The notes beneath the pieces were generated by a model. It made no database searches and was not told the DNA's origin. It worked only from the letters and a program-made list of their open reading frames with translations. DNA of 21,604 nucleotides from a virus, in the IMG/VR virus record IMGVR_UViG_3300045417_000489, positions 1 through 21,604 of that record, one strand, 5' to 3'. Both the position numbers and the translations under genes were made by a program. Shown piece by piece: positions 1 to 21,604 of this stretch (within the stretch, counting starts at the first letter, position 1; each line of letters opens with the position of its first letter).

Positions 1-3000
1 TAACTTTTGGGTTTGGTCCTAGTGGAGCGCACACAGTCTATACAGTTATTAGAACATTAACAGGCACAAATATTGGTCAATGGTGGAGAGATCCATTTAT
101 CTCTCCAGGTGGACTTAGAATGACAGGCGCAGATCTTAAACCGTATAATGCGCCTAATTTAAGAGAAATATATAATGTCCTAAATAATGCAACTGGATCG
201 GGAGAGCTTCACCCAACTCAAGTTATAGATAGAATGAAATCTTATACGTCTGTAAACACAATAGGAGTATTAGATATTATATCTGAAGGACCTATAGAAG
301 GATTCGTATCTGGATTATATATACCAGACTTTAGTGGCAAGACTACAGGAGATGTAGGATATAACAGCGTCAGATTTCAACCATTCGAACAAACATATTC
401 TAATCCCGAAACAAGATCTATATATTGGAATGATACACCTATAACAAATTTACAGGGATTTTATAATTTTCAATATGTTGATTATAAATTTACTTATGGC
501 GAAAAAACAAATGATCATACTATCTTTAACCCTTACTTAAACCTTTATCAAGATAGAAGAAATTATTTTGGTGGTCAAGTAGATAGAAATAAAATACCCC
601 TAGAAACTTCTGTGACAAAACTTGTAAACGAAAGATTATATGGTGCATATTTAGTTACAGGATCACAATTTGTATACTATCCGAAAACTTTTTATATTTA
701 TAATTTAGATGTATCTAAAATTAAAGTTAACATTAAAGTAAATTCTCTTTATAACAGTATTATAACCGGTCCCAACGCTGGAGATATAGAAAGAATAAGA
801 TCTCAATTTAGGTTTTTAATTTATAGAGTCCTTAGCAATGGAGAAAAGATTATTTTAGATACTTCTAAGTATCCACCGTTTGTAAAAGAAGCTTATGCTA
901 AAACAGATATAGAAGTTGCTGGAAAGATAACTCAACCAAATGTTTTTTCTTTTTTAATAAATATTAGACCATATTCAGAAAATTTTCCATTTTTTGAAAT
1001 TTTACCAAATCAAATTGGTTGGGCTGTAGATATAGTAAAAATAACAAGAGAATCACTCGGTGGAGTAGCATTTAATAATACTACTCTTGATAGTTATACT
1101 GAAATATATTCAGATAGGTTTGTATATCCAGACACAGCTATGGTTTATACAAAATTTGATGCAAGGTATTTTGCTAGTATACCAGATAGGAATTATAAAA
1201 TTAGACTTTTAAAAGTAAAAATACCAGTTAATTATGATCCTATAAGTAGAAAATACTCTGGCCCATGGAATGGAAAATTTAAAGTAGCATGGACAGATAA
1301 TCCAGCTTGGTGTTTTTATGATCTAATTACGAGTAATAGATATGGACTAGGAAAATATATAAACTCTGTGCTTACAGATAAATGGACGCTATATGAAATT
1401 GCTCAGTATTGTGATGAACTTGTATCAGATGGAGTTGGTGGCCTTGAACCAAGATTTGTATGCAATCTATTAATTTCTACAAAAGAACAAGCATATAAAG
1501 TTGTTAACGATATGGCTAGTTTATTTCGATCAATTGTTTATTATAGCGCGGGACAGATTATAGTGTCTCAAGACGCAAAAAAAGAGCCTGTTTATCTTTT
1601 TACAAATAGCAATGTTATAAATGGAAATTTTGATTATCAAGACGCTTCCAAAAGAGCAAGAAAAACTGTAGCTATAGTAAGATACAACGATTTAACAAGA
1701 AACTATAAATCTTCAATAGAATATATAGAAGATAGAGATGCTATATTAAAATATGGTATTAAAGAAACGGAAATTGTTGCATTTGGCTGTACTAGCAAAA
1801 ATCAAGCTAGAAGACTTGGTAAATGGAAATTAGTTACAGATAATACAGAAACCGAAACGATAGATTTTCAAGTTGGTATAGAAGGAACTTTTGTAAGACC
1901 TGGAGATATTATTAATGTTTTTGATCAAAATAGGAAATTAAAAACTTACGCCGGAAGAACGATGGAATTAAAAACTGGTTACGCTATTTTAGATTTACCA
2001 TACACACAGCAAAATCTTTACGCAATTACTGGAGTTAATAAAAATTTTCAAATTAGCTTTCTTACTCCAACATATAATTTAAATCCTGGAACTTATTTAG
2101 GAGATTTTTATCTTACTGGTTTTTCAAATAATTTAAGTTCTAGTGGAATTAGCGGAATAAACTCTTCATTTCTCAGAAGAAGCCAAGTTCAAACAATAGC
2201 AATTAATAATCCAATAGTTTCTATTAGTGGCGGATCAGGTATATATTCAGATAAAATTAGAATTAATTTTAATACCGCTTTATCTACTAATGGATATGAA
2301 TTGCCTCAAAATACTATTTGGATGATGGATATTAATCCAAGTGGTTATGGAGGTGTATCTGGCGGACTAAATGTAAGGTCAAATATAAATAACTCTTTAA
2401 ACACAGCATATCCTGGCTCAAACTTAGAACCATATTTAAATGAACCAAAAGCGTATAGAATATTAAATATTACTGAAAAAGAAAATTCTATTTATAATAT
2501 AAACGCCTTGGAATATAATGTAAATAAATTTACAGACATTGATAACGTTGGAGTTCTTACGAATTTGCCAGTAAAACCTCCTTATCCATTACCTCCTACT
2601 TTAGTGCCAAGAATATTATACAGAAATACAAACAATATACTTACTGGATCTTATGGAGTTTTATATACAACAGATCAAGGAGGTATAAATAGTTTAATGT
2701 ATGAGATAATTCCACGAGCAGGTACGCCAAAAGAAAATCTATTTTATGTATATGTTAAAACTGGATCAAATTATGATAATTTATTATCTGCTCCAGAAAT
2801 AAATTTAAAAGATGTAGTAGCAATGAATGAAATAAGGACCGGAATTACACCAGCTTTATTAAATATAGGTCAAATACCACCATTTTTCACACCATTATAT
2901 ACAGGTGATTATTATTTTAAAGTTTTTAATACAAATAACATAGGAGAAAGATCTACTCCTGTTACAGCATTTTTAAGGCTTACAAATCAGGCTGCAATAT

Positions 3001-3035
3001 CAACAATAGAAGCAACGAAATTTAATATATTTTAA
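1..3035 (+). CDS. J: Tail tip / host specificity protein, lambda gpJ-like (5' partial)
   Basis: This is the central tip protein at the far end of a siphophage tail. Long blocks match lambda gpJ as I remember it. Counting from the ATG at 120, SEGPIEG lies at residues 55-61. Further on come a P-I-S-R-K-Y-S-G-x-W-N-G block, A-W-C-F-Y-D, K-W-T-L-Y-x-I-A-Q-Y-C-D, FGCTS followed by Q-A-R-R-L-G, and an R-P-G-D segment. The last ~150 residues look like an FN3-like domain ending in GDYYFKVFNTNN. The ATG at 120 has AGGTGG upstream, but the frame is open and coding-like from base 3 with no ATG, GTG or TTG, so the gene probably starts left of the window; 120 is the alternative start. It is short for the family: it ends soon after the FN3-like domain, with no stalk or receptor-binding C-terminus. 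The next gene starts 2 bp downstream, suggesting co-translation. Confidence 0.93.
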   Translation, partial: TFGFGPSGAHTVYTVIRTLTGTNIGQWWRDPFISPGGLRMTGADLKPYNAPNLREIYNVLNNATGSGELHPTQVIDRMKSYTSVNTIGVLDIISEGPIEGFVSGLYIPDFSGKTTGDVGYNSVRFQPFEQTYSNPETRSIYWNDTPITNLQGFYNFQYVDYKFTYGEKTNDHTIFNPYLNLYQDRRNYFGGQVDRNKIPLETSVTKLVNERLYGAYLVTGSQFVYYPKTFYIYNLDVSKIKVNIKVNSLYNSIITGPNAGDIERIRSQFRFLIYRVLSNGEKIILDTSKYPPFVKEAYAKTDIEVAGKITQPNVFSFLINIRPYSENFPFFEILPNQIGWAVDIVKITRESLGGVAFNNTTLDSYTEIYSDRFVYPDTAMVYTKFDARYFASIPDRNYKIRLLKVKIPVNYDPISRKYSGPWNGKFKVAWTDNPAWCFYDLITSNRYGLGKYINSVLTDKWTLYEIAQYCDELVSDGVGGLEPRFVCNLLISTKEQAYKVVNDMASLFRSIVYYSAGQIIVSQDAKKEPVYLFTNSNVINGNFDYQDASKRARKTVAIVRYNDLTRNYKSSIEYIEDRDAILKYGIKETEIVAFGCTSKNQARRLGKWKLVTDNTETETIDFQVGIEGTFVRPGDIINVFDQNRKLKTYAGRTMELKTGYAILDLPYTQQNLYAITGVNKNFQISFLTPTYNLNPGTYLGDFYLTGFSNNLSSSGISGINSSFLRRSQVQTIAINNPIVSISGGSGIYSDKIRINFNTALSTNGYELPQNTIWMMDINPSGYGGVSGGLNVRSNINNSLNTAYPGSNLEPYLNEPKAYRILNITEKENSIYNINALEYNVNKFTDIDNVGVLTNLPVKPPYPLPPTLVPRILYRNTNNILTGSYGVLYTTDQGGINSLMYEIIPRAGTPKENLFYVYVKTGSNYDNLLSAPEINLKDVVAMNEIRTGITPALLNIGQIPPFFTPLYTGDYYFKVFNTNNIGERSTPVTAFLRLTNQAAISTIEATKFNIF

Positions 3036-3037
3036 AA

Positions 3038-4462
3038 ATGAAAATAGAAAATTTAAATTTTACTTTGAGCTGGCAATCTAAAAGGAAAAACTTTATAGAA
3101 GGTTTAGATGAATATAATTTTCAATTTCCTTCTTATAATATTATAATAAAAAATACAGAAGACCTAATTATTAATAAATTTAATAATTTATCTAATCATA
3201 TACCAGAAATGGAAAGTATCCTGCATGGAAATCAGGACGGCTATGTATGCCCAAAGCTAATAGTTAGACCAAGCAATTCGGTATGCTCTACAGAATTTAA
3301 ATATAATTTTGAAAATAACTATACAAGATATAAAGAATTAAATAATAAAATTGGTTTTTATAAAAATTTAAATATCAAAATAGACTATCATCAAAATGAC
3401 GATGAAGATTTTTTTGTTGATGTACAATACAAAGAAATAGAAGGCATAGAAAAAAATAAACTTTTTCAAAAAGTATACAGAAGCACAGATTATTTTTCTG
3501 TTAAGTTATCTTTAGATAAGGAATATATTAAAGAAAAACAAATTCATTCTTTATTAATTGTAAGCGAGGCTTCTAATAGAGAATTTAAAAATAAAAAACT
3601 AAAAAATCTATTTATAGAAAATATTGAAGATAAATATCTAGACATTAACGATAAATATGTGTTATTGACTGTTCCTTTTATAGAAAGCAATATCGTAGAA
3701 TTTACAGAAAATATAAATATAAAAATCGCATGCTTAAATTCTGTTCAGTCTGATATATATAACTTTTTGAACAGCAGAGAAAATCAAGAAAATATAAATA
3801 TATTTCTAGAAGAATTTTTTTCAAATCAATTTTTTGATATAGGAAAGATATATAAACAAAATACTAATAATGAAATAATATTATATTATCAAAACTATTT
3901 ATATCTTTTTAATCAAGAAAGTTTAAGCTCTAACTCTGAACAAAACGATAGAGTAATAGATGAAACAAAATTTAATAAATATTTCCCACTTCTAAATAAA
4001 GATCAAAATAATAGAACAATCTGCTTATCCGATGATTTAAATATAGATAATATAAGAGATAATAACTTTGATCTTTCTTTAGGACATCTGGGTTATTATG
4101 GTAAAAATATAAATAAAATTGAAGACGTGGCAATTGATTTAGATTATTTTCAACAAAAAAATATATTATCAGCAAAAATTTTAGAAATAGAAGAAAACCA
4201 AGATCAATGTTCTTTGTATATGGAATTCATTACCAATCTTTATAGTAACGAAAAACTGTTTATTGAACCAAATCAAAATTTAAAATATATTAAAAAATAC
4301 AAAACGCTTATTGAAAATAAAGAATATATAACCTTATTATTTAAGTATACTTATTCTTTAGAAAATACAAATCAATATTTAATAGAAAATCCATCTATAT
4401 CTAAAAATCAAATAATTGCAGATAAAGATTTAATTAATTTTTCTGCAAAATTAATTTTATAA
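3038..4462 (+). CDS. Unrecognised 474-residue protein downstream of the J-like gene
   Basis: I do not recognise this family. The protein is rich in Asn, Lys, Ile, Glu and Tyr, with no signal peptide, membrane segment, repeat or catalytic motif that I can see. Alternating polar/hydrophobic stretches suggest a mostly beta structure with long charged loops, which would suit a virion protein. The ATG lies 2 bp after the stop of the J-like gene and has no clear Shine-Dalgarno site, so translation is probably coupled to J. Its stop codon is 2 bp from the stop of the convergent tape measure gene. By position it is most likely a tail tip accessory or receptor-contacting protein, perhaps replacing the C-terminal part that the J homologue lacks. 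That role is inference only. Confidence 0.8.
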   Translation: MKIENLNFTLSWQSKRKNFIEGLDEYNFQFPSYNIIIKNTEDLIINKFNNLSNHIPEMESILHGNQDGYVCPKLIVRPSNSVCSTEFKYNFENNYTRYKELNNKIGFYKNLNIKIDYHQNDDEDFFVDVQYKEIEGIEKNKLFQKVYRSTDYFSVKLSLDKEYIKEKQIHSLLIVSEASNREFKNKKLKNLFIENIEDKYLDINDKYVLLTVPFIESNIVEFTENINIKIACLNSVQSDIYNFLNSRENQENINIFLEEFFSNQFFDIGKIYKQNTNNEIILYYQNYLYLFNQESLSSNSEQNDRVIDETKFNKYFPLLNKDQNNRTICLSDDLNIDNIRDNNFDLSLGHLGYYGKNINKIEDVAIDLDYFQQKNILSAKILEIEENQDQCSLYMEFITNLYSNEKLFIEPNQNLKYIKKYKTLIENKEYITLLFKYTYSLENTNQYLIENPSISKNQIIADKDLINFSAKLIL

Positions 4463-4468
4463 AATTAA
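4451..4468. terminator. AT-only perfect palindrome spanning two convergent stop codons; weak bidirectional terminator candidate
   Basis: TTAATTTTATAAAATTAA is its own reverse complement over 18 bp. It contains the TAA of the plus-strand 474-residue gene (4460-4462) and the TAA of the tape measure gene (4467-4465 on the minus strand). As RNA it can form a 7-bp stem with a 4-base loop. In the minus direction a short U run follows; in the plus direction none does. The stem has only A-U pairs, so termination would be weak. No other terminator separates the two opposed transcription units. Confidence 0.3.
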
Positions 4469-7400
4469 CGACTTCTATACAAAAGTCCACCAGGCCTTTG
4501 CTGTTCTGTTATAACTTTTAATACTTGGACTTTTACTTTTTCTGCCAGTAACTTTGTTCTTCTTCTTTCTTTCTCTGTAGAATCTCTATCCTCTCCTTCG
4601 CCTTCTTCGTCTGAACTTTCTGAAGCGCCACCTTCTTTTGTTACATTAACTGTAACATTTACATTATTTGTTGAATAACTATCCCCGCCAGTCATTGAAT
4701 CTGACGAATTAGATCCATATCCTATCTCTCCACCTTCTGCAAATTTTTTAATCCGACCATTATTTAATTTATTAAAGAAATCTTTACCGTAAAGATTAAC
4801 TGCACTTTTACGCATAACATATTCACCATCCATTAGCATTGCTGGTACATTGTCTTCGCTCAATCCCCCTTGCGCGTATTTCTTAATATATCCACCATCT
4901 TTAAGAAATGATAATCCAAAACCTCCTAGTCCAAATCCAAATTTCCACCAAGATCCTTGTTGACGTTGTTTCTGAGCTTTATTATATGCGTTTTGCATTT
5001 CTGCCCTTCTTTGTTGTTCCATTTTTAATCTTTCTGCTTCATCTCTTAATCTTTGTGCTTGTCTTTCTAAATATCTTTCATAATCTTCAGCATTTTGCAA
5101 ATTGATATCGTCTACATATTTTATATAATTTAATAAATCCACTTCTCTTTCTGCTCTAATTTTGTTCATTGGGTTTGCTTCATCTGTTATAGCTTGTAAA
5201 CTTAATCTTGAGTCTATAGCTTCCCCACCACCAGTAGGTCGGAATTGATCATTATATAGATATGCATTCTGAAATGTCGTTTGCAATTCTCCGCCGGTTT
5301 GAAATTTTTCTATTGCTTGATTATTTAACATACTTAAAAAGCCAGAGCCATATTTATTAACTGCGCTTTTCTTTACAACATATTCTCCATTTGTTAACAT
5401 TGCTGGAACATCGTCCTTTGTTCCAGACCCACCAGTTACAGTTCCTCCAGAAGAATATCCTTTAACTAAACCCCCTTTATTAAATCCAAATAAACTTCCA
5501 AAACCGCCGCCTCCTCCTCCAAAACCAAAAAGATTACTTGTGCTACCAAAAAATTTGCCAAATGCGAGATTAATGCTTGCTTCCAAAGCAATTTGTTGAA
5601 TTTTATCTAATATATTTAAAGCGAATCTATTAAAAGCTTCCTCTGCTGTAGCTGTACCATTTGTAAAATCTAAAAATGCACTTCCAAATTCACTCTTAAT
5701 TGTTCTAGCAGTATCAATCGCCCCAAGCTGAACATCTCTAAATAATGTAGATGTATTGTAATCAAAAGTATCAGTAAAGGCATCTACAAAGTCCATAGGC
5801 TGAGTATTTCCAAGCTTTATATTTTTTTCTCTAATTGCTTGTCTTCCACTTAAAAGTTCATCTGAAAATATTGAGCCTTCCGCGCTTTGAGCGAGTAAAC
5901 TTAAATTCTCTGCAGCTGCCTGCGTAGCGAAATCTAATTTTACAAGATTATCTCCATATTTTTTTTCTAAATTTGCTCGAATAATTTCAAGTTTATTTGC
6001 CGCATCTTGTTGTAATGTTGAATCTAAAATAGAAGTATTGAGTGTATCAAATCCATTTTTTAAAGAAGAATTGCTAGCAGTTAATGCTTTTAATTTTGAT
6101 TGAAATTCTGATACCTGCCTTACGGATAAACTTCCTTGACTTTTTATTAAATTTAATTGCTCTTGTTCAAGAGCTTTTAATCTTTCTTTTGCTAAAGTTT
6201 TTGTTTGATCATCTAAAGTATTTTCATTTATTGAATTAATACCTTGTAAAGTTGAACCTGCAATTTCTTTTCGATAATCTGACGCTGACTTTCTTGTTAA
6301 TTCTTCTATGTCTAAACCTTCAAATCTATTAGATCTTATACTATCTATGGAGTCTCCAATAAGTTGTGAATTTTTTTCTTCTAAAAATATCTCGCCACGT
6401 CTAGCTTGTTGAATAATACTTAAACTTTTTGCAGCGCTTGATAAGGCAGGGATTAATAAATTGACATTCCCATTTAGTTTTTGAGTCAAGTCTGCTTCTA
6501 TAGCTTTATATTTATTAATAGCCTCTTGTTTTAGAGTCGCGTCTGAAATACTTGCTTCTAAAAATTTAAGATTCTCGCCAGAAAAAGAAGCTTTTTGACC
6601 GGCTTTATCTAAACCGACGCTGAGCTTGGCGAGTTGTTCGTCTGTTAGTTTTCCTTCTTTAGCAAGCATATCTGATGCTATTTTAATTTCATTTGAAAAT
6701 TCGGTCATTAAACCTATTCGTTTTGAATCTTCTTGAGTTCCTTCTGCAATTTTTGTTGCTGCAGATTTTGTTAAATTTTCAAGTATAGTTTTTGGACTAT
6801 ATTGTGTCATAAGTTCTGGATCTTTAAAAAGCTCAGCAAAGTTTGCTTGTTTTAATATTTCTGCTCCAGCTAATCTTCGCGCTTTTGCCTTAGCATCACC
6901 TTCTTCTGTTCCATCTCCTTGAGCAAAAAGTTCAGTTAAGTTTCTTGATAATTTTGTAAAAGAAAATATCCCTTTTGCAGCATTATCCATTGCTCTACCT
7001 GCTAATTCTATACTGCCGCCTAATTCTTTAAATTTTTCTATTATTTTGTTTACTTTTTCTTTTGGATCTCCTTCGCCTTCTAGTATATTCTTAATAGACT
7101 TTTTTATGCCTTCACTATTTTTTTCTGTTATTTCTCCAGCAGTGACTAAACCACCAACAAAATTATCTAATTCTGCATTAAAATTTTTTAAGCTTTCTGC
7201 CGCTAAATCTGATGATATTTTTTGAACAGCAAAGCTTTCTTTTTCTCCTTGAGATAATTTTCCATAATTTTTTGGTACTTTATATTTTTCGAAAACTCCT
7301 CCGAACCCTTGAGATGATCGAGCAATAGCTTCTGCATATGCAATATCCATTTGTTTTATTTTTTCATCTATCTGTTCTTGCGAAAACGGCAACATTCCTG

Positions 7401-10400
7401 TTTCCATAACGCTTTTTGGTCCATTTTGAATATTAGTTAAATTTGTAAAGCCAAATGGATCAGGGAGCTCACCAAAAGGAAGTCCGTCTGCTAATGATTT
7501 TTCTAAATCTTTCATTCCTTTAGATGTAGTAAATGAAACTAATTCAACAGCATTAGCATATCCAGATAATGATCCAATTAATTTTTCGTTATTAGAAAAT
7601 AATTCTGCGAAAGTCTCTCCAGATCTTGTTCGTAACATTCCAAAAGCGGTAATATTTTCATCAAATGTATCTTTTAAATTTCCATCTTTTTTAAGTTGAG
7701 CAATTTTAAGCGTGAATTCATCTATGCTTTTTGCAGACTCTTTTATGGTAGAAGCTTTTCCTAAAGCTTCTCTTAATCTTTCTTCATCTCCAGACTCTAT
7801 AGCATTTATAATCTGATCTCTTAGTTCAGGGCCAACGTCATTAAGTATTCTCCCTAAACTTGCTCGAGATTCTTTTTCTGCTCTTTGCAAATCTTTATTT
7901 GTGCCTTTTATTTCCCCAGTTTGTAGTCCTCGAATTTGTTCTCTAGAAGTTAAAAACCCTTGAACATTTTCATTAAATCTAGATAAATTATTTAAGGACG
8001 CTGCTGCTTGTTTTGCAAATTCTCCAGTTTTATCATTAAGTATCTCTAAAGATTTTTTAAATCCTAATACTGCTCCTGTTGCAGCTCCTATAGCAATACC
8101 CCATGGTCCAAATAAAGCTCCTGCTCCGGCAAAACTTGCAAACGTCCCAAGTCCTTCTGCTGCAGCTTGCGCATTTTTATCTCCTGGTCTAGAGGCAGCG
8201 ATTGTTTGTGCAATGATTGGAGCGCCGATACTTAAACCAATACCTGCGCTTTGTAATGTCCCCCCAGCAACTTGTCTTGCTTGTTGAACTCTACTTAAAG
8301 CCTCGGAAGCTCTTTGTGCTCTTGCCCCAGTGGTAGTATCTCTAATTCTTTCTAATTCTCTTAATTGTCTACCTCCACCAATGCCTAATCCTAAAAATCC
8401 TCCAGCAGATCTTTCTAAATTAGAAACATTTTGATTAAATGATCTTGTAGCGTTTGCAACTCCTTGTAAGCTACGATTCATATTTGTAGCGCTTTGATTT
8501 GTTAGATTATATTTTAAAGCTAGCGCGTCAACTTGCTTATTTGCATTTCTTAAACTTATTTGTTGATTTCTTAATTGATCTACGATCCCACGAAATTCTT
8601 TCTTTGCATCTGCTAGAAAAGTTTTTTGATATTGAAGCGCAGCTTGTTGAGATGCACCTGCTCCGGTCATAGAAGCAAACATTGCAGGGTTAATTTGCAT
8701 AAATGGAGGAGCAAAATTAGGTATATATCCTTCGGAGTACATCCCAGCTTTCTTTGCTTCATTTATATTTTTTTGAGCAGAGATACCCTGTTTAATTCCA
8801 TTTGGTTCATCCTCTGTATTATATACTCCAACGCCTAAAGGGTTATAAGAGCTCATTAATCTATTATCTTGTCCTATTCTAACCTTAGACATTGGTATGC
8901 CAGCTGACACTTCTCTTTTTATTGCTTCTCCAAACGCAGTAAAATTAGGAATAAATCCCTTTGACTTATTTCTTTTCTTTGGAACTCCCCTGCCTTCTGT
9001 CCTAGCAATTTTTTCTGCAAAACTATCTAAATTTCCTTCTGAGAGAGAATTTTTTAAATCACCAAAAGTAAATCTTCCTAATTCTTCAGTGTTTTTAAAC
9101 CTTTTAGATAAAACATATAATTCATTCTTATTTAAATCAAATGTATTAATTTCACTTGTAGATATTCTATTTAATGAGGCTTTAATTGCTGATTCAAAAA
9201 TTTGTCCAACAGTGGCTTCAATTGCGCTTCGACTTAGATTACCTCTAACATAATTTTCAAAATTTGCACTTTGGACAAGCTGTGGTCGAGTAGACACAGA
9301 GCTTATATAGTTCTTTGCGTTTTGTATTAATGAATTTGTTGCGTCTTTATATAATTGATCTGGAACTGCAGCGTCTCCTCCCGGAAATGGATAAGCGCTA
9401 AATCTATACGATCCATCATTTTTTGTATTTCCACCAGCTAACATTGATGGTCCACCAGCTGTAGATGGGTAAACTAAAACATAATTTTTTTTAAGTTTTG
9501 ATCCTTCTTTTTCTCCACGAGCTCCAGCTGTTAATTTTTCTTTTTCTCTTAATTGTTGAGTAATTAATCCTCTAGCTCCAGATTTTACAAATACTTGACC
9601 TCCTTCTAAAACTAAAGTTCTATTACGGAATAAACTCTCGTTAGATCTAAGCATTGCTCTTTCAGCCTCTTCTCCACGCAAGGGTTGATATTCTTGATTA
9701 ATTAATCTTCTAAATCTGTATTGCTGTCTGGCTTCTGAAACTGAAACATTTTCTGAAAATGCATTTGTAATAAAATTTGGTATATAGCCATTACTTGCAT
9801 ATGGATCAAAACCATTTTTCTTTATAAAATTATCTTTATAATTTTTACCCGCTTTACTATTTTGAGGAGGCATAATTGCTGGTTGATTCATTCCAGCAAA
9901 TTTCTTTACTTTTTCCGCAGAATTATATATAACCCTACCTTCTCCAGAGATATTCATTTCTTTTATTTTCCCTGGTTTATATCCTCCGGTTAAAGCTCCA
10001 TATACTTCTGATAATGCATAATTAGGTATAAAGCCTGAAGATTTAGTTGTAATTTGGCCGCCTTTAACTCCTACGCCTCTTGTAACTAATGAACCGCCAA
10101 TAGTTGAAGATAATGCTGCAGCCTGTGTTCTTAAAGCGTTTTGTTCTTTTAATATTCTTAATATTTGATTTTCTACAGATAAAACCGTGACTTGTTTTGC
10201 ATTAATCGCTGCAAGCAATTGAGGCTCTTGACTTAGGACTTGATTAATTTTTATTTGTAATTGAGCTCTGGCCTCAGCTTGTTGATTTATACCTAGTAAA
10301 GCTTTTGCTCCAGACGCTGCAAATTTAGATAAATCTAAACCAAGTTTTCCAATAACAGCACTAATTAAAACTATTCCAGGGCCAGATATAAATGTTGAAA

Positions 10401-11652
10401 GACCCTTTAATATACCCTCTCCTAGTCTACCTCCAATACTTTCACTATCTTGACTATTTATAAATTCTAAAACTTTATTAACGCTTTTTAAAACATTCTC
10501 TATAGCTGGTTGAAAAGCTCCAGAGCCTATTGTAGCACTAAGTTGTGCAGTATTTGCTATAGTTCTATTAAATAAAGCAGCGATAGTTTCGTTTAAAGTT
10601 TCATTTCTTCTAATAGCTTCATCCGTAGAAGACGTAGAAGTTTTTAGAGCTCTATCATATATAGAATATTCTTTACCTAGATCTCCTAAAGCAGCCTTTA
10701 GGACGTTAATTTGGAAAACCCCTCCAACACTTTCAGCAACTTGTGCTCTTTGAGAGTCTCCAAGAGTATCAAATGTTGTGCCTAATTCTTTTAATATTTG
10801 TAGTGCCGGTAAAGTGTTTCCTTCTAAATCTCTTACTGTTACTCCTAAAGATTGAAGTTGATCTAAGACTTCTGTTCTTTGTATTCTTGTAAAGATAGTT
10901 TTTAAAGAATTTCCAATAACTGCACCACCTCTAGCAGTAGTTTGCTGTACGCTAGTAACAATGGCTAATAATTCATCAAAATCAACATTAACATCTTGAG
11001 CCGAACTTCCTACTCGTTTAATTGCTTCTGCAAGGTCCGCAGAACTTACGGCAAATGCAGCATCAACATTAGCTAATTTATTAATAATAGCAGTCGAATC
11101 TAAAGCTGATTTATTAAAGCTATTTATCGTCGCAGTCAAAGCTTCTACTGCACTTACAGTATCTAAACCGCTAAGACGAGTTAATATAAGAGCATCTCTA
11201 GTTCTTTTTAATGTTTCTTCTGCGCCAAGACCTTGACGCGCAAGCTCTGTCGCAGCTTCTGCTACAGAACGAAATGATTGGCCAGTATCTTTAGCTATAT
11301 TAAATACTTCTGCACCGAATTTAGCTAGACCTTGGGTAGTCGTATTTAATATAACATTAATATCTGTGAGTGATTTTTGAACATCTACAGTTGTTCTAAT
11401 TAAATCTGTAAAGGCTTTTTGCACAGTATAAATTAGACCTGCGCTTGCTCCGAATGCAATAACGCGCGCATTTGATGCGTCTAACGATTTTTGAAACTCA
11501 TTTGCAGCACCAGTAATTCTACCTAAAGGCTGAGTAAAATTCTTTTCGTTTAATCCTTTAAATTTAAAATCACGAGATAACGCGCTTTGTATATCTCTTT
11601 CGAGTTGTCTCGTGTCTGCGCCTACTGAAATTGTAGCCGAAGTCCTAGCCAT
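4465..11652 (-). CDS. Tail tape measure protein (2395 residues)
   Basis: It sets tail length and fills the tail tube. Residues ~1-400 resemble the TP901/PhageMin_Tail type of tape measure core, with Ala/Leu-rich helices around 110-180 and 250-330. Membrane-like hydrophobic segments lie near 425-445 and 1175-1210. G[FY]IPN[FY] motifs occur near residues 540, 622, 898 and 975. Long charged helices follow, including ~2167-2230. The C-terminal third holds a Gly-rich stretch and two related modules, near 2050-2130 and 2240-2305, of the form DxVPAMLxxGEYVxxKSAVxxYG. It ends in a basic tail with RPGGLL. The ATG is preceded by AAAGGAAC and AAGGT. At the known ~1.5 angstrom per residue the tail would be about 0.36 micrometre long. 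The gene follows the chaperone-position genes, as usual, but tip genes do not follow on the same strand. Confidence 0.95.
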   Translation of the reverse strand: MARTSATISVGADTRQLERDIQSALSRDFKFKGLNEKNFTQPLGRITGAANEFQKSLDASNARVIAFGASAGLIYTVQKAFTDLIRTTVDVQKSLTDINVILNTTTQGLAKFGAEVFNIAKDTGQSFRSVAEAATELARQGLGAEETLKRTRDALILTRLSGLDTVSAVEALTATINSFNKSALDSTAIINKLANVDAAFAVSSADLAEAIKRVGSSAQDVNVDFDELLAIVTSVQQTTARGGAVIGNSLKTIFTRIQRTEVLDQLQSLGVTVRDLEGNTLPALQILKELGTTFDTLGDSQRAQVAESVGGVFQINVLKAALGDLGKEYSIYDRALKTSTSSTDEAIRRNETLNETIAALFNRTIANTAQLSATIGSGAFQPAIENVLKSVNKVLEFINSQDSESIGGRLGEGILKGLSTFISGPGIVLISAVIGKLGLDLSKFAASGAKALLGINQQAEARAQLQIKINQVLSQEPQLLAAINAKQVTVLSVENQILRILKEQNALRTQAAALSSTIGGSLVTRGVGVKGGQITTKSSGFIPNYALSEVYGALTGGYKPGKIKEMNISGEGRVIYNSAEKVKKFAGMNQPAIMPPQNSKAGKNYKDNFIKKNGFDPYASNGYIPNFITNAFSENVSVSEARQQYRFRRLINQEYQPLRGEEAERAMLRSNESLFRNRTLVLEGGQVFVKSGARGLITQQLREKEKLTAGARGEKEGSKLKKNYVLVYPSTAGGPSMLAGGNTKNDGSYRFSAYPFPGGDAAVPDQLYKDATNSLIQNAKNYISSVSTRPQLVQSANFENYVRGNLSRSAIEATVGQIFESAIKASLNRISTSEINTFDLNKNELYVLSKRFKNTEELGRFTFGDLKNSLSEGNLDSFAEKIARTEGRGVPKKRNKSKGFIPNFTAFGEAIKREVSAGIPMSKVRIGQDNRLMSSYNPLGVGVYNTEDEPNGIKQGISAQKNINEAKKAGMYSEGYIPNFAPPFMQINPAMFASMTGAGASQQAALQYQKTFLADAKKEFRGIVDQLRNQQISLRNANKQVDALALKYNLTNQSATNMNRSLQGVANATRSFNQNVSNLERSAGGFLGLGIGGGRQLRELERIRDTTTGARAQRASEALSRVQQARQVAGGTLQSAGIGLSIGAPIIAQTIAASRPGDKNAQAAAEGLGTFASFAGAGALFGPWGIAIGAATGAVLGFKKSLEILNDKTGEFAKQAAASLNNLSRFNENVQGFLTSREQIRGLQTGEIKGTNKDLQRAEKESRASLGRILNDVGPELRDQIINAIESGDEERLREALGKASTIKESAKSIDEFTLKIAQLKKDGNLKDTFDENITAFGMLRTRSGETFAELFSNNEKLIGSLSGYANAVELVSFTTSKGMKDLEKSLADGLPFGELPDPFGFTNLTNIQNGPKSVMETGMLPFSQEQIDEKIKQMDIAYAEAIARSSQGFGGVFEKYKVPKNYGKLSQGEKESFAVQKISSDLAAESLKNFNAELDNFVGGLVTAGEITEKNSEGIKKSIKNILEGEGDPKEKVNKIIEKFKELGGSIELAGRAMDNAAKGIFSFTKLSRNLTELFAQGDGTEEGDAKAKARRLAGAEILKQANFAELFKDPELMTQYSPKTILENLTKSAATKIAEGTQEDSKRIGLMTEFSNEIKIASDMLAKEGKLTDEQLAKLSVGLDKAGQKASFSGENLKFLEASISDATLKQEAINKYKAIEADLTQKLNGNVNLLIPALSSAAKSLSIIQQARRGEIFLEEKNSQLIGDSIDSIRSNRFEGLDIEELTRKSASDYRKEIAGSTLQGINSINENTLDDQTKTLAKERLKALEQEQLNLIKSQGSLSVRQVSEFQSKLKALTASNSSLKNGFDTLNTSILDSTLQQDAANKLEIIRANLEKKYGDNLVKLDFATQAAAENLSLLAQSAEGSIFSDELLSGRQAIREKNIKLGNTQPMDFVDAFTDTFDYNTSTLFRDVQLGAIDTARTIKSEFGSAFLDFTNGTATAEEAFNRFALNILDKIQQIALEASINLAFGKFFGSTSNLFGFGGGGGGFGSLFGFNKGGLVKGYSSGGTVTGGSGTKDDVPAMLTNGEYVVKKSAVNKYGSGFLSMLNNQAIEKFQTGGELQTTFQNAYLYNDQFRPTGGGEAIDSRLSLQAITDEANPMNKIRAEREVDLLNYIKYVDDINLQNAEDYERYLERQAQRLRDEAERLKMEQQRRAEMQNAYNKAQKQRQQGSWWKFGFGLGGFGLSFLKDGGYIKKYAQGGLSEDNVPAMLMDGEYVMRKSAVNLYGKDFFNKLNNGRIKKFAEGGEIGYGSNSSDSMTGGDSYSTNNVNVTVNVTKEGGASESSDEEGEGEDRDSTEKERRRTKLLAEKVKVQVLKVITEQQRPGGLLYRSR

Positions 11653-17179: not shown

Positions 17180-17689
17180 TTAGCTAGCATTATATGTTGT
17201 GCGAATATTATATAACGCACCTCTTTCTGAGTTGTAAGATCCTGGAACCGTATCATCTCCAGCAACCTGTAGTGGAAAAATCTCATTTATATTATATTTA
17301 TCAACCAAAGACTTTAATTCTTCATATTCTTGCTTGCGGATCTGATAAAAATTTTTCAAAACTTCATTAGAGTTTAGTTTTTGCACACTGCCAAAATCAT
17401 CTTTAATTGAAGTATAATCACTAGAAGCGAGACTTCCTGCGCTTTTAATTTTAATATCAAAAAAATAAATTGAATACATTTTTTTAAATATATATTTTTG
17501 TATATCATTTAAACTTGGGGTGATCTCTAGTGTAGCGCTATCAATAAAATATTCAATATTTAATAAATTTCCAAGACCACCAATATTTCTTCTTACCCAT
17601 GCAGCGATTGCGGCTATGCTAAAATCACTTGGCTCGCCCATTTCTTCATATATTTCTTGGGCAATAGATGTAACAGTATTAATAATCAT
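17180..17689 (-). CDS. Head-tail adaptor / connector protein (SPP1 gp15 or HK97 gp6-like by position)
   Basis: The 169-residue protein is mostly helical, as expected for the adaptor that docks under the portal. It has an N-terminal helix with Q-E-I-Y-E-E-M-G-E-P, then A-A-W-V-R-R-N-I-G-G-L-G-N-L-L, a central K-K-M-Y-S-I-Y-F-F helix and a charged C-terminal helix. It is the first of four contiguous genes leading to the tail tube. AAGG lies close to the ATG, and a GTGTAATTTA copy lies directly before that. Its first ~11 bases overlap what looks like the end of a lost upstream gene. Capsid and portal genes are not in the window. The role is inferred from order, length and helical content. Confidence 0.55.
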   Translation of the reverse strand: MIINTVTSIAQEIYEEMGEPSDFSIAAIAAWVRRNIGGLGNLLNIEYFIDSATLEITPSLNDIQKYIFKKMYSIYFFDIKIKSAGSLASSDYTSIKDDFGSVQKLNSNEVLKNFYQIRKQEYEELKSLVDKYNINEIFPLQVAGDDTVPGSYNSERGALYNIRTTYNAS

Positions 17690-17757
17690 ACCTTAAATTA
17701 CACTTAATTCTTCCGCCTCCATCAGGAACCATTTCATCTCCTTCATCTAATATTTCC
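17679..17757 (-). pseudogene. Possible C-terminal remnant of a lost structural gene
   Basis: Read in the frame offset from the methyltransferase, this stretch gives about 23 sense codons ending DGGGRIKCNLRYDY and a TAA at 17681-17679. That stop lies inside the start of the connector gene, a normal overlap for neighbouring phage genes. The composition (acidic D-E-G-D-E then a Gly run) looks like a real protein end. A stop at about 17764-17766 closes the frame upstream, so no intact gene remains. It is short and could be chance. Confidence 0.35.
17694..17703 (-). promoter_or_regulatory. Recurrent intergenic element upstream of the connector gene (site 3)
   Basis: The minus strand reads GTGTAATTTA seven bases before an AAGG-preceded ATG. 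It matches ten bases of sites 1 and 2. It is closer to the start codon than the others, and it lies in a stretch that may be a coding remnant, so its role is uncertain. Confidence 0.25.
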
Positions 17758-18132
17758 GTACATTATGTATCTATTATTCCTTTTGCATTTTAGTATAGTT
17801 ATTGAGTCCTTAAATTCAAATTTAATTATTGGATTTTGACTAGTAACTATATCAAATCCACTATTCATCAATTTATCTGTTATTTCATTGATATTTCCAA
17901 AATAATTATGCACTTCTATGATTATTTCTTTAAATTTTCTTAAAATTTCAATAGGTGCACCAGCTATTATTTCGAATTCAGAACCTTCAGTATCAACTTT
18001 TAAGCACCCATCTTTAATTTGGTGTTCATTAACGATGGTCTCTAAACTAATTTTATTTAATCTTTTGTTAATATTTTCTGCATAGTAAACTTTTGTTTCT
18101 GATTGCTCTTTTTGTACATATGTTAAACTCAA
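17743..18132 (-). CDS. FkbM-type methyltransferase, C-terminal half only (probably non-functional fragment)
   Basis: FkbM-family enzymes methylate hydroxyl groups on sugars or small molecules using S-adenosylmethionine. The visible 129 residues hold the second half of the domain: I-S-L-E-T-I-V, then LKVDTEGSEFEIIAGA at ~44-59 (the family's K-I-D-V-E-G-A-E block) and an I-I-I-E-V-H strand at ~71-75. The N-terminal glycine-rich SAM site is absent. The only start is a TTG with no Shine-Dalgarno site, and a TGA lies four codons upstream. The missing half is not found elsewhere in the window. The base composition is very AT-rich, unlike the GC-rich block starting just upstream of its start. The last residues may also be altered, since another frame takes over across its end. 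I read it as a gene cut by recombination; a short working protein is unlikely. Confidence 0.6.
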   Translation of the reverse strand: MSLTYVQKEQSETKVYYAENINKRLNKISLETIVNEHQIKDGCLKVDTEGSEFEIIAGAPIEILRKFKEIIIEVHNYFGNINEITDKLMNSGFDIVTSQNPIIKFEFKDSITILKCKRNNRYIMYGNIR

Positions 18133-18155
18133 GCGTGGCTTTCATTGTTTGGTAA

Positions 18156-18401
18156 CTAAAGCCCGTCCGGCGGTGGGGCGATAAACTGCACCGCATCGGC
18201 CTCGTCATTGTTTGTGGCGGCGAGGATGAGAGCCTTGCAACGCAGATACTCGTTGCGGCAGGCGGCGATGTAATTTTTGATGGCCTCGCAACGGGCGGGT
18301 TCGTAGATGCCAAGGGCGGCGTTGATTTGCTCAAAAGCGGCGACATGAGATATGATTGCTGATTCGCAGGCTTTTTGAAGCAGGTCTAGTTGTCTATTCA
18401 T
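18156..18401 (-). CDS. Small helical protein of the GC-rich cassette (81 residues)
   Basis: This is an unrecognised, probably helical protein with four Cys spread along its length and a Pro-rich end (A-P-P-P-D-G-L). It has no membrane segment or signal peptide. It starts in an ATGA overlap with the 276-residue gene and shares its higher G+C, so the two travelled together. It is the last gene of the cassette; 23 bp later the AT-rich methyltransferase fragment begins. The function is unknown. The size and position after a structural gene could suit a fibre chaperone, but there is no direct evidence. Confidence 0.6.
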   Translation of the reverse strand: MNRQLDLLQKACESAIISHVAAFEQINAALGIYEPARCEAIKNYIAACRNEYLRCKALILAATNNDEADAVQFIAPPPDGL

Positions 18402-19228
18402 AGCGCAAACGGGAAACGCCTGTTATTGTCAGTAGCAGACAGGTCGTTCACATAACGAGCCAGAAACCAGTCCAAATAAATAATTTTTTCAGCACTTGCC
18501 AATGTTTTTATTCCAAACTGGTAAGCAAAAGTATTCTGAGGTGCTGTAGATAAGGTGCTGTCATAAACAGATGTTGGATCAGAATTTGCGGCGGTTTGCT
18601 CAAAAATCCTGAATCTGTGGCTGGTGCTGCTCATCAGTTCCACAGCAAATACGTATGCCTTGGAAGCTGAAGCGGTTATGCTTGTGTTTTCTCTTTGAAG
18701 TGAGCCAGAGCTGAAACCTTTTAGTGCTTGAAAATTTGGGGAAATAGAAGTGTCCAGCTCAAATCCAACCGTATCGGTTACCCCAAACAAATCCGTGCCG
18801 AAGAAGGGTGTGTAGCTCATTCTAAAAACCACATTGGCAACAGAGTTAAAACCGCATCGCAAGCTGTAAAGCTGAGAAGAACTATTAGTCGAAGCAGGAA
18901 GTTCTTGGCTTCTTTGAATCCCTAAAGCCCCCCTGTTATTCAGGGTTGATTGTGTTCTGATAAACCTCACGCCTATGGCTGGCTCCATCACCGCTGGCGG
19001 CGAAAAACTTGAGTCAACCCCAGTTCTTGCGCCTACCAAATTAGTTGCAAAATTTATTAACGAACCATTGTCGCCGAGAACAATCTGAATACCATTTGTT
19101 CCTGTTTCACCGCCATCAAGAAAATCTGTAAACTTTTGGAATTTGTAGTTTACTCCTTTCGAATTTGGCTTGATTGCAAAACTATCGGAGATACTTCCAA
19201 GCGTTGGATTTGGTCCGAAGAAGCCCAT
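18398..19228 (-). CDS. Probable virion surface protein of the GC-rich cassette (276 residues)
   Basis: I do not recognise a family. The protein is rich in Ser, Thr, Phe, Asn and Gly with regular beta-like alternation, and one segment (Y-V-F-A-V-E-L, then S-S-T-S-H-R-F-R-I-F-E) resembles strands of a lectin-like jelly-roll. It lacks signal and membrane segments. It starts 3 bp after the 422-residue gene, with AGGG about eight bases upstream of the ATG, and overlaps the 81-residue gene by 4 bp. The G+C is about 45% in a hand-counted line, against roughly 28-30% for the tail genes. By its partner and composition it is probably an appendage or decoration protein that binds a surface or glycan. 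This is inference. Confidence 0.65.
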   Translation of the reverse strand: MGFFGPNPTLGSISDSFAIKPNSKGVNYKFQKFTDFLDGGETGTNGIQIVLGDNGSLINFATNLVGARTGVDSSFSPPAVMEPAIGVRFIRTQSTLNNRGALGIQRSQELPASTNSSSQLYSLRCGFNSVANVVFRMSYTPFFGTDLFGVTDTVGFELDTSISPNFQALKGFSSGSLQRENTSITASASKAYVFAVELMSSTSHRFRIFEQTAANSDPTSVYDSTLSTAPQNTFAYQFGIKTLASAEKIIYLDWFLARYVNDLSATDNNRRFPFAL

Positions 19229-19231
19229 GGC

Positions 19232-20500
19232 TTAACCCTGCAAAGCCTGAAACCGCTTGCCCGCCGTGGCGCAAACGATGTTTACGGCTTCCGTTGGAAT
19301 AAAATTGCTCTCGAAAACTATTCCCCCGCCGTTGGCGGAAAGAAGGAGGCCTTGCGGCGTGGAGGAGACTGGCGTGAACCCGATGCCAAGATACATGGCC
19401 GTGTCGGATAGGTTTTGAACAACAAGGTATTTGCGGGAGGCGTTGGAAGCAAAAACCTCTTGGGAAGTTGCCGCCGTGGTGATGGACAGGGTGGCGGGGG
19501 CAGACGGTTGGGACAGGGTTCCTCGGTTCACCGTCCCGCTAAAAGAATAAGCTCTTAGTCGATAATAAATGTTCCCGCCACCCCCGGACGCATAGAAAAC
19601 TACTCTTGCGTATCTGCACCCGTTAGCTGGGACGATTCGATAGGCCATGACATCAAGCTGGTTGGAACTCGTTATGTTTTCAGCTACCCATGTTCCCGGT
19701 CCGGGGCCGTTGATGGCTGGAAGTATAAACTCTTTGGATAAAAATCCGCCCTGAGCCAAGAATGCGGCGTTGTTTGGTGAAAATTTGTTGACTGGCTGTG
19801 CGCTCGAAATTGATGAGAAGTTTGATTGCGTGGACGTTTGAATTGCAAAATAACCCGGATTGGACCCAAAGCTAGAACCCGTAAAATCAATTATATAATA
19901 ATCTGGGATGCCGCCCGCATCAAAGGTTGCCCCAGTAAACGATGCGGAGGGGTTATGGGCTTGAGGTGCTTGTTCCGCTGTTTGCACCAACCCAACCGCC
20001 GAAGCGCTATCCACCGTCACCCTGTTGCCGACATTTACATTAAGATGAGCCGATCCTCCAATCCAAGTCGAGCCTAAATTTTCTTGTTGAGCGTTGAACA
20101 ACTCAACTGGCAGAGGTCTTCCGCCACCGCCAAGCCCAATGGCCAGAAAATTCTCGTCATCGGCAAAGCCGAGCCGAACGGCCTTTTCGGGATAAAAGCC
20201 TCCTGCGCTATCGACATCACCTGCAAAAGCATTTGCCTGAGTGTTTTGCTGGTCTTCATAATGAATGACTAGCTGGTCGGAGTCTGCGTGGCCGGTGGTG
20301 CTGGCATCGGTCAAACGAACCATGGTGTTTGCACCAGCCGTGACAACGGCCCGATGCGAGCTTGAGGCGAAATTATAGTAGATTATTCCCCGTGTAGCGT
20401 TAGTGACCAAAAGCAACTGGTCTTGATCAATGTTAAGCCCCGTCAGCGTGATGACCTTGGTGTCTGCGTTGAATGTGTAGTTAGGATGAACTTGTTTCAT
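19232..20500 (-). CDS. Probable phage fibre / appendage protein of the GC-rich cassette (422 residues)
   Basis: The N-terminal ~85 residues (N-Y-T-F-N-A, V-I-T-L-T-G-L, later D-Q-L-V-I-H-Y-E-D-Q) have the repeated strand-turn pattern of a small domain that I have seen at the start of structural proteins in uncultured phages. A Gly-rich linker follows at ~121-126. The middle is Ser/Ala/Phe-rich. The last ~80 residues (A-S-R-K-Y-L-V-V-Q-N-L-S-D-T-A-M-Y-L-G-I-G, then S-A-N-G-G-G-I-V-F-E) form a compact beta domain frequent near the C-terminus of such proteins. The ATG has no Shine-Dalgarno site but sits behind an AT-rich 46-bp spacer with TATAAT-like repeats. G+C is about 50-55%, well above its flanks. 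It is likely an appendage protein presented on the virion, with its host contact unknown. Confidence 0.65.
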   Translation of the reverse strand: MKQVHPNYTFNADTKVITLTGLNIDQDQLLLVTNATRGIIYYNFASSSHRAVVTAGANTMVRLTDASTTGHADSDQLVIHYEDQQNTQANAFAGDVDSAGGFYPEKAVRLGFADDENFLAIGLGGGGRPLPVELFNAQQENLGSTWIGGSAHLNVNVGNRVTVDSASAVGLVQTAEQAPQAHNPSASFTGATFDAGGIPDYYIIDFTGSSFGSNPGYFAIQTSTQSNFSSISSAQPVNKFSPNNAAFLAQGGFLSKEFILPAINGPGPGTWVAENITSSNQLDVMAYRIVPANGCRYARVVFYASGGGGNIYYRLRAYSFSGTVNRGTLSQPSAPATLSITTAATSQEVFASNASRKYLVVQNLSDTAMYLGIGFTPVSSTPQGLLLSANGGGIVFESNFIPTEAVNIVCATAGKRFQALQG

Positions 20501-20546: not shown

Positions 20547-21604
20547 TTATCCTAAAGCTATAGCATAAGCAATAGCATTATTTTCAGTTGCTACTGGATC
20601 TGTATTTAAGATTACATTTTTAAATATTCCAGTACCAAATACATTTATATTATTTGCAAAAGTTTTAACTCCGCTTATAATTTGATTACCAGTATTGTGA
20701 ACGAGATTATTAGCTAAAATATTACCATCTACTCTTAAATTTGTTCCACTAATATAAACTGGTGAATTAATAAAGTTAATATTAGTACTAGAAAATGTCA
20801 TATCTCCAACGCCACTAAGATTTAATCCTACATCCACAAGGTTTACTTCTTGACCAGAAAACGTTGTTACTCCTGTGAATGTTTTATTGCCACCAATGTT
20901 CTGATTGCCTGAGGTAAATACAATATTACTTGATGTTGAATTTACGTATCCACTTAAACTATTGATTCTATTAACTAATGCAATTCCAGACAAATTTAAC
21001 GAGCCGCTTAGAGAATTAATCGTAGTCAGAAGAGATGTAAATTCTCCACTTAGTAAAACTCCAGTACCATTAACAGTTGGTCTTAATGCAAAAGTTTTCA
21101 CTCCACTGATATTTTGATTCCCAGTATTATATACAAGATTAGGCGCAGATATTGGATTTGTTAAAATTACATTTCCGTTAGTAATTGTGATATCAACTCC
21201 AGACAAAGCAAGATTATCAATATTATTTAAATTCAATGCATTAAATATACCTGTGCCTTGAATTTCAAGATTATTTATAAAAGTTTTATTACCAGAAATA
21301 TTTTGATTGCCAGTAGTTCTTACTGTTGAAGTTAGGTCTACTTGCGCTGCCTCGCCGCTGAGAAGAACTCCAGTACCATTAACAGTTGGTCTTAATGCAA
21401 AAGTTTTAACTCCACTTATAGTTTGATTTCCGGTGGTATAAACAATTGTTGTTGGTAGCCCTGCAGCTTCTCCACTTAGAAGAACTCCAGTACCATTAAC
21501 AGTTGGTCTTAATGCAAAAGTTTTAACTCCACTTATAGTTTGATTTCCGGTGGTATAAACAATTGTTGTTGGTAGCCCTGCAGCTTCTCCACTTAGAAGA
21601 ACTC
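20547..21604 (-). CDS. Repetitive fibre-like structural protein (5' partial)
   Basis: The frame is open through the right edge. The TTG at 21236 is an internal Leu codon, so the gene starts outside. At least six GNQ[TNI]I[SG]G[VN]KTF motifs occur, usually after T-G and often followed by ALRPTVNGTGVLLSGE. Toward the window edge the units are perfect 39-residue repeats; toward the C-terminus they degrade and are broken by Leu/Ser-rich segments with L-S-G turns. Such Gly/Thr/Asn repeats suit a trimeric beta-helical shaft. The C-terminus is short (E-N-N-A-I-A-Y-A-I-A-L-G), with no visible chaperone or enzyme domain. It lies upstream of the connector genes and next to the GC-rich appendage cassette, so a head or neck fibre is as possible as a tail fibre. 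No receptor-binding domain is visible in the part seen. Confidence 0.78.
   Translation of the reverse strand, partial: VLLSGEAAGLPTTIVYTTGNQTISGVKTFALRPTVNGTGVLLSGEAAGLPTTIVYTTGNQTISGVKTFALRPTVNGTGVLLSGEAAQVDLTSTVRTTGNQNISGNKTFINNLEIQGTGIFNALNLNNIDNLALSGVDITITNGNVILTNPISAPNLVYNTGNQNISGVKTFALRPTVNGTGVLLSGEFTSLLTTINSLSGSLNLSGIALVNRINSLSGYVNSTSSNIVFTSGNQNIGGNKTFTGVTTFSGQEVNLVDVGLNLSGVGDMTFSSTNINFINSPVYISGTNLRVDGNILANNLVHNTGNQIISGVKTFANNINVFGTGIFKNVILNTDPVATENNAIAYAIALG
21361..21604 (-). repeat. Perfect 117-bp tandem repeats inside the fibre-like gene
   Basis: Units at 21361-21477 and 21478-21594 are identical by eye over 117 bp, and a third begins at 21595 and runs off the window. The period is 39 codons, so gain or loss of a unit keeps the frame. 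A diverged related unit lies near 21047-21150, and partial ones occur further left. Confidence 0.95.

Follow-up and report, generated by a model that had tools for sequence, protein, structure and literature searches.

It is an open question, and a practical one, how unrelated phages swap receptor-binding proteins and can nevertheless be assembled. The question arises with a GC-rich run of three genes in the AT-rich tail operon of a siphovirus-like phage. The sequence studied is the IMG/VR virus record IMGVR_UViG_3300045417_000489, positions 1 to 21,604, a 21.6-kb record referred to here as the window; loci and contigs compared with it are labelled with L-numbers. A preliminary description had taken the three genes for a mobile host-range cassette, moved as one unit into an unusual place and possibly forming an unnamed appendage system.

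Gene Organization and Composition

The main features of the window are the following.

120-3035, plus strand: J-type central tail fibre gene
4465-11652, minus strand: tape measure gene, siphovirus-like; smaller tail and neck genes are also on the minus strand
17180-17705, minus strand: start of the conserved tail/neck block, the island edge in relatives
17743-18132, minus strand: native FkbM methyltransferase remnant (C-terminal 129 aa), beheaded by the insertion
18156-18401, minus strand: 81-aa small protein gene
18398-19228, minus strand: 276-aa tip adhesin gene
19232-20500, minus strand: 422-aa anchor/adaptor gene, with N-domain, variable middle and C-domain
20547-21604, minus strand: native low-GC adhesin/fibre gene with BppL_N-type 'TGNQxISGVKTF' repeats; the 5' end lies beyond the window

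The three genes (the trio) are co-oriented and nearly gapless, as first described, with a 3-nt gap between the 422- and 276-aa genes and a 4-nt overlap between the 276- and 81-aa genes. They lie between the BppL_N-repeat adhesin and the conserved tail/neck block (17705 downward). The resident adhesin is matched by Pfam BppL_N (1.1e-27) and by baseplate and tail proteins of PHROGs, and it has homologues in AT-rich relatives.

The GC content of the trio is 0.45–0.54 versus about 0.30 in the flanks, and GC3 is 0.52, 0.40 and 0.63 for the 422-, 276- and 81-aa genes, with 0.13–0.20 in all 14 other genes. Under the codon usage of the flanks, the trio costs 2.0–2.6 bits per codon versus 0.98–1.40 elsewhere. 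The tetranucleotide distance along the window peaks at the trio, and a two-change-point maximum likelihood fit on GC placed the borders at 18128 and 20468 (log-likelihood gain, 110). Taken together, these measures put the contrast far beyond chance, and the distinct composition ascribed to the trio was confirmed, its codon usage differing from that of the rest of the phage. Since the 276-aa gene has an intermediate composition, the imported block is a mosaic itself. Elsewhere in the window, GC rises locally to about 0.41 within the tape measure gene (7751–8750), and a 474-aa plus-strand gene adjoining the J-like fibre (3038–4462) has about 21% GC and no PHROG or Pfam match.

Junctions of the Insert

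Low-GC intergenic DNA of 46 nt precedes the 5' junction, which falls at or inside the opening codons of the 422-aa gene. On the other side, the foreign DNA passes the 3' end of the trio (18156) by about 32 nt, to about 18123. Past the stop of the 81-aa gene, donor-like DNA enters ATGAAAGCCACGCTTGAGTTTAA, which is the start of the next gene in contig L016, where the gene after the 81-aa homologue begins MKATLEFNLPEE... After this donor gene start, the sequence turns low-GC within the FkbM methyltransferase.

18123-18145, minus strand: opening of the donor's fourth gene, 8 codons (MKATLEFN), by nucleotide match to L016 at 6200; cut at the 3' junction

The FkbM remnant is matched by Pfam Methyltransf_21 (4.1e-7) at model positions 90–166 only, while L080 and L081 have an intact 225-aa FkbM at this site, immediately ahead of the neck gene that they share with the window. 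From the positions of the junctions, at the adhesin stop and in mid-FkbM, the insertion replaced the native sequence between them. The N-terminal SAM-binding half of FkbM was lost to it, and the frame is still open. Both junctions were observed in one contig only; a near-identical contig, L055, stops at window position 17921 within the FkbM remnant, 200 nt short of the junction.

The Trio in Other Phages

IMG/VR yielded 53 relatives of the 81-aa protein, with up to 86% identity, placed behind a tip gene in contigs of 42–61% GC. Nearly all such contigs with enough upstream sequence have the order class a anchor, MGFFG-like tip and small protein, which recurs in dozens of IMG/VR contigs; the window shows an anchor homologue, an MGFF-start tip and a small-protein homologue in this order and belongs to the same family. 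The virion genes that flank the trio form three or more sets with single families only in common. As these sets are nearly disjoint, the trio is present in several phage backgrounds, and the same order in at least three of them indicates that it moved as a unit. The earlier proposal of joint movement thus agrees with the synteny in unrelated higher-GC phages; the three genes do occur together elsewhere. That the trio is an import from other phages is well supported.

DNA and protein searches of cultured phage records gave no match to the trio, a genome scan with the 81-aa alignment found no prophages or hosts with relatives of that protein, and a Pfam search of the trio proteins gave no match. 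IMG/VR scans with the 422-aa or the 276-aa protein alone found no relatives, because only the ends or the rare tip domain are shared.

Insertion Site

Nucleotide similarity ends at window positions 17703–17708 in nearly all of the 25 relatives found for the neck gene in IMG/VR. The small flanking genes were matched by no PHROGs profile and are considered neck genes from gene order. Beyond this edge, AT-rich relatives carry different adhesins, glycosyltransferases, sulfotransferases, FkbM and other genes, as judged from translated frames. In L068, from the same low-GC phage family, the island (2348–4098) contains its own tagged adhesin (see below), a 176-aa short anchor, a 50% GC glycine-rich tip and a gene remnant. 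At its start, this tip matches that of L146, a GC-rich phage; L068 represents a second, parallel import, again with a GC-rich tip.

Pelagimyophages are known to have fibres and glycosyltransferases in a hypervariable 'host recognition cluster', which is flanked by VrlC and the neck gene (PMC7029224). The variable island in the relatives and this known cluster make the trio's placement typical, so the view of the site as unusual was abandoned: it is a hypervariable island between adhesin and neck/tail block. The pelagimyophage and cyanomyophage cluster is likewise a hypervariable island extending from adhesin or baseplate to neck genes (PMC7029224), and the window qualifies as an analogous one. 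The two differ in that the window phage, with its J-type central fibre and its tape measure, is siphovirus-like, no sheath or VrlC that would place it with T4-like myoviruses having been found in the window, and in that its island carries a whole three-gene import of foreign composition.

Anchor, Tip and Small Protein

Two domains were delimited in the 422-aa anchor.

20246-20500, minus strand: N-domain ('LLLITN' domain, about 85 aa), mostly beta, pLDDT about 93; putative socket
19235-19501, minus strand: C-domain of class a ('SRKYLxxQNxSDTxMYLGxGF...LEG'), from alignment; putative coupling to MGFF-type tips

The AlphaFold (AF2) model, confident only at residues 1–87 and 332–422, presents the anchor as a modular protein. 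Residues 2–88 match PHROG 5838 'virion structural protein' (3.8e-6, profile positions 4–96); the N-terminal domain of that family is therefore present, with the rest of the 1106-position profile unmatched in the 422-aa protein. Relatives of the N-domain numbered 185 in IMG/VR. Searched against PDB folds, the anchor matched nothing below E 0.001 and gave only weak cupin-like and fibre hits.

The 276-aa tip consists of a short MGFFG start and a variable receptor-type domain that is probably all-beta; its structure prediction, made without relatives, was poor (pLDDT 36). The usual tip stem, MGFFGGG...SSxAGTAGLVPAPAAG, is missing, and as MGFFG alone is shared, the tip is a variant of the trio family. 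Its body had no match among the 53 tips, and it is 57% identical to the L113 tip and 61% to the L174 tip. This rare receptor-type domain (window 18398–19228, L113 5138–5947, L174 3858–4679) thus occurs with three anchor types and different tip starts: the L113 and L174 tips start with MPL and stand behind anchors unlike that of the window. A tip body swapped between tip-start classes makes the module itself a mosaic.

The 81-aa protein is a short version of a 105-aa family. It had no Pfam or PHROGs profile match, and one of its relatives gave a single insignificant tail-fibre match (E 0.049). Its position and size are compatible with a tip assembly chaperone, which it possibly is. The assignment of the trio to receptor-binding or appendage parts is supported.

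The anchor C-domain and the tip start vary together. Class a anchors precede MGFF-type tips (43:0) and class b anchors precede MPL-type tips (0:34), counts that include related loci; the Fisher p is inflated by this relatedness and was not relied on. The pairing also holds within one phage group with a shared MKQ[IV]W anchor start, and the L125 tip, which begins MPLFS, fits it.

A C-Terminal Tag before N-Domain Genes

The resident adhesin upstream of the anchor ends in a short peptide.

20550-20576, minus strand: C-terminal tag AIAYAIALG of the resident adhesin, putative docking plug for the anchor N-domain

The tag consensus is (A)IA[Y/F/M/L]AIAL(G), searched for at frame ends with the pattern [IVLM][AVS][YFML][AS][IVLTG][AV][LIVF]G{0,2}. 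In the N-domain scan, 80 of the 185 IMG/VR loci were taken. The frame immediately before the N-domain gene ends in the tag in 68 of 82 sites, and in 65 of the 71 where the N-domain protein starts with MK. Control gene starts in the same loci had a tagged upstream frame in 0/1109 cases, the controls being 1116 starts minus 7 tagged ones that all turned out to be N-domain genes. Without the tag, the upstream proteins fall into 14 groups of no detectable similarity to each other and range in length from 45 to 1295 residues. The tag codons differ synonymously between phages of 31% and 68% GC, and the distance from tag to next start ranges from −4 to about 209 nt.

Counted from the tag, 75 of 16,498 frames of at least 40 aa end in it. 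An N-domain follows within 200 nt in 72 and at about 209 nt in two; the remaining one is in a copy of L113, a locus fetched after the N-domain search. Since the N-domain was the route by which many loci had been retrieved, the count in this direction is biased; the reverse direction is free of this bias.

Among low-GC phages, L068, L168 and L173 have their own resident tag and N-domain gene, and in relatives without an anchor the adhesin C-terminus differs from AIAYAIALG. Independent records with the tag are the Arthrobacter phages Atuin (ALAIALAIAL) and Sonali (ALAFAIAL) and the podovirus ctQRb9 (AVAYAIALGG); in Synechococcus phage B23, the rule holds only partly. No tag was found upstream of the N-domain genes of T4-like cyanophages or of most MA-starting ones, so the tag is not a requirement for the N-domain in every case. 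A limited literature search found no description of this linkage between a C-terminal tag and the N-domain of the next gene, which is what is new here.

Two further observations concern the setting of the tag. In the cultured phages, the tag and N-domain pair lies at 2907–6050 of L176 (Atuin gp180–181) and 2884–6068 of L177 (Sonali gp25–26), the Atuin pair adjoining recA-like and tRNA nucleotidyltransferase genes, not tail genes. In one phage group, L105–L139, the tag is on a free-standing frame of 45–48 residues (MPITATVCGPASISVAVGTPIVTGG...AVALAIALG), not on a fibre gene, just upstream of the N-domain gene (e.g., before 4001 in L105).

Proposed Mechanism and Alternatives

Import and docking chain considered jointly, we regard it as reasonably probable that the trio is an imported receptor-binding module working as a chain of swappable parts, its couplings being suggested by the linkage and co-variation of sequence types. 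DNA from a phage of 45–55% GC replaced the segment from the adhesin end to mid-FkbM in the hypervariable host-recognition island. The C-terminal plug AIAYAIALG of the resident adhesin would then be bound by the N-domain of the 422-aa anchor, the 276-aa tip, through its short conserved start, would be bound by the anchor C-domain, and the distal domain of the tip would bind the host receptor. The 81-aa protein might help the tip to fold or load. The phage would gain a new binding tip, and a plug and socket conserved across unrelated phages would let the imported anchor fit the resident fibre at once.

Extended beyond this locus, the proposal is that a C-terminal peptide of about eight residues on many unrelated fibre and structural proteins is a docking signal for the N-domain of about 85 residues, through which unrelated phages exchange receptor-binding chains without losing fit. 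We lean towards this general plug-and-socket as somewhat better than an even bet.

The import may also be real and the tag a trimer cap or a maturation or export feature of fibres, standing before N-domain genes through block inheritance. Such inheritance would likewise keep the neighbours together, the linkage could reflect another shared role, and some N-domain genes have no tag. However, 14 dissimilar upstream families are tagged, which block inheritance alone does not explain, and in the examined loci every tagged gene is followed by an N-domain gene. We judge this unlikely, although it is the alternative with most weight.

A recent, non-functional import, a fragment hitchhiking in an island that tolerates debris, would account for the beheaded FkbM, a 3' junction that cuts two genes and an 81-aa gene shorter than its relatives. 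It is improbable in view of the three intact ORFs of the trio, the 5' junction, which coincides with the anchor start or lies just inside it, and the matching tag at the end of the resident adhesin.

Still less probable, to the point of being a minor concern, is a chimera, arising in assembly or in the library, of two phages present in the same sample. This would have to be two independent misjoins that return to colinearity with one and the same phage family, in itself an unlikely event, and the order and orientation of the flanks are as in L080 and L081, while a different contig, L068, has the same architecture with other genes. What speaks for a chimera is the single contig with sharp composition breaks, the 3' one within two genes, and the end of L055 just before the junction. 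Finally, a nucleotide-level role of the tag (translational coupling, promoter or recombination site), suggested by its position next to the start of the following gene, was rejected as hardly credible on the synonymous codon differences between 31% and 68% GC phages, with the variable distance also against it.

Comparison with Known Systems

In serial layout, the proposed chain of fibre, anchor and tip resembles the long tail fibre of T4, in which gp34, gp35, gp36 and gp37, with assembly factors, form proximal shaft, hinge and distal tip in series; the likeness is one of layout only, and no sequence relation is claimed.

Klebsiella phage KP32 has branched dual receptor-binding proteins, with a branching domain in gp37 and a conserved peptide in gp38 (PMC13082707). 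As proposed for the window system, one receptor-binding protein there carries the next via a short conserved peptide on a dedicated domain, which makes swaps possible. In KP32, the peptide is N-terminal on the distal protein and the domain is on the proximal one, whereas in the window system the peptide is C-terminal on the proximal, upstream protein and the domain N-terminal on the distal one, and the sequences differ. A T4 gp10-like branching domain was not found by Pfam (no match) or PDB fold search (no significant match), and the window system is not of the KP32 type.

Alteromonas phages A5, V22 and P24 share a host recognition module of fibre and chaperone, for which the chaperone role was demonstrated (PMC10579305). 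Like the trio, this module is multi-gene, has a small downstream protein and is common to distantly related, morphologically distinct phages; the protein families differ as far as searched, and the chaperone role in the window is a guess. As interpreted here, the window system works like the KP32 and Alteromonas modules and is a member of neither.

The PHROG 5838 proteins of cyanophages S-PM2, S-RSM4 and S-RIM32 also have the N-domain at the protein start and lie downstream of a fibre-like gene. They differ in length (about 1100 aa), no MGFF or MPL tip gene was seen behind them, and the gene upstream ends in 'FNATRSKYGV' or similar, not in the tag.

Implications

The import of the trio is real and its placement is ordinary; the trio represents a variant of the modular receptor-binding chains already known. 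The term unnamed appendage system holds insofar as no cultured phage record matches the trio, but a variant of such chains is no new organelle. If the docking proposal is true, the tag and its matching domain would be a simple compatibility rule that predicts which fibre parts can be swapped, and the rule would help sequence-only annotation of many unnamed virion genes. Cultured Arthrobacter phages have the tag, and so do many uncultured phages; the rule can be tested in a laboratory host.
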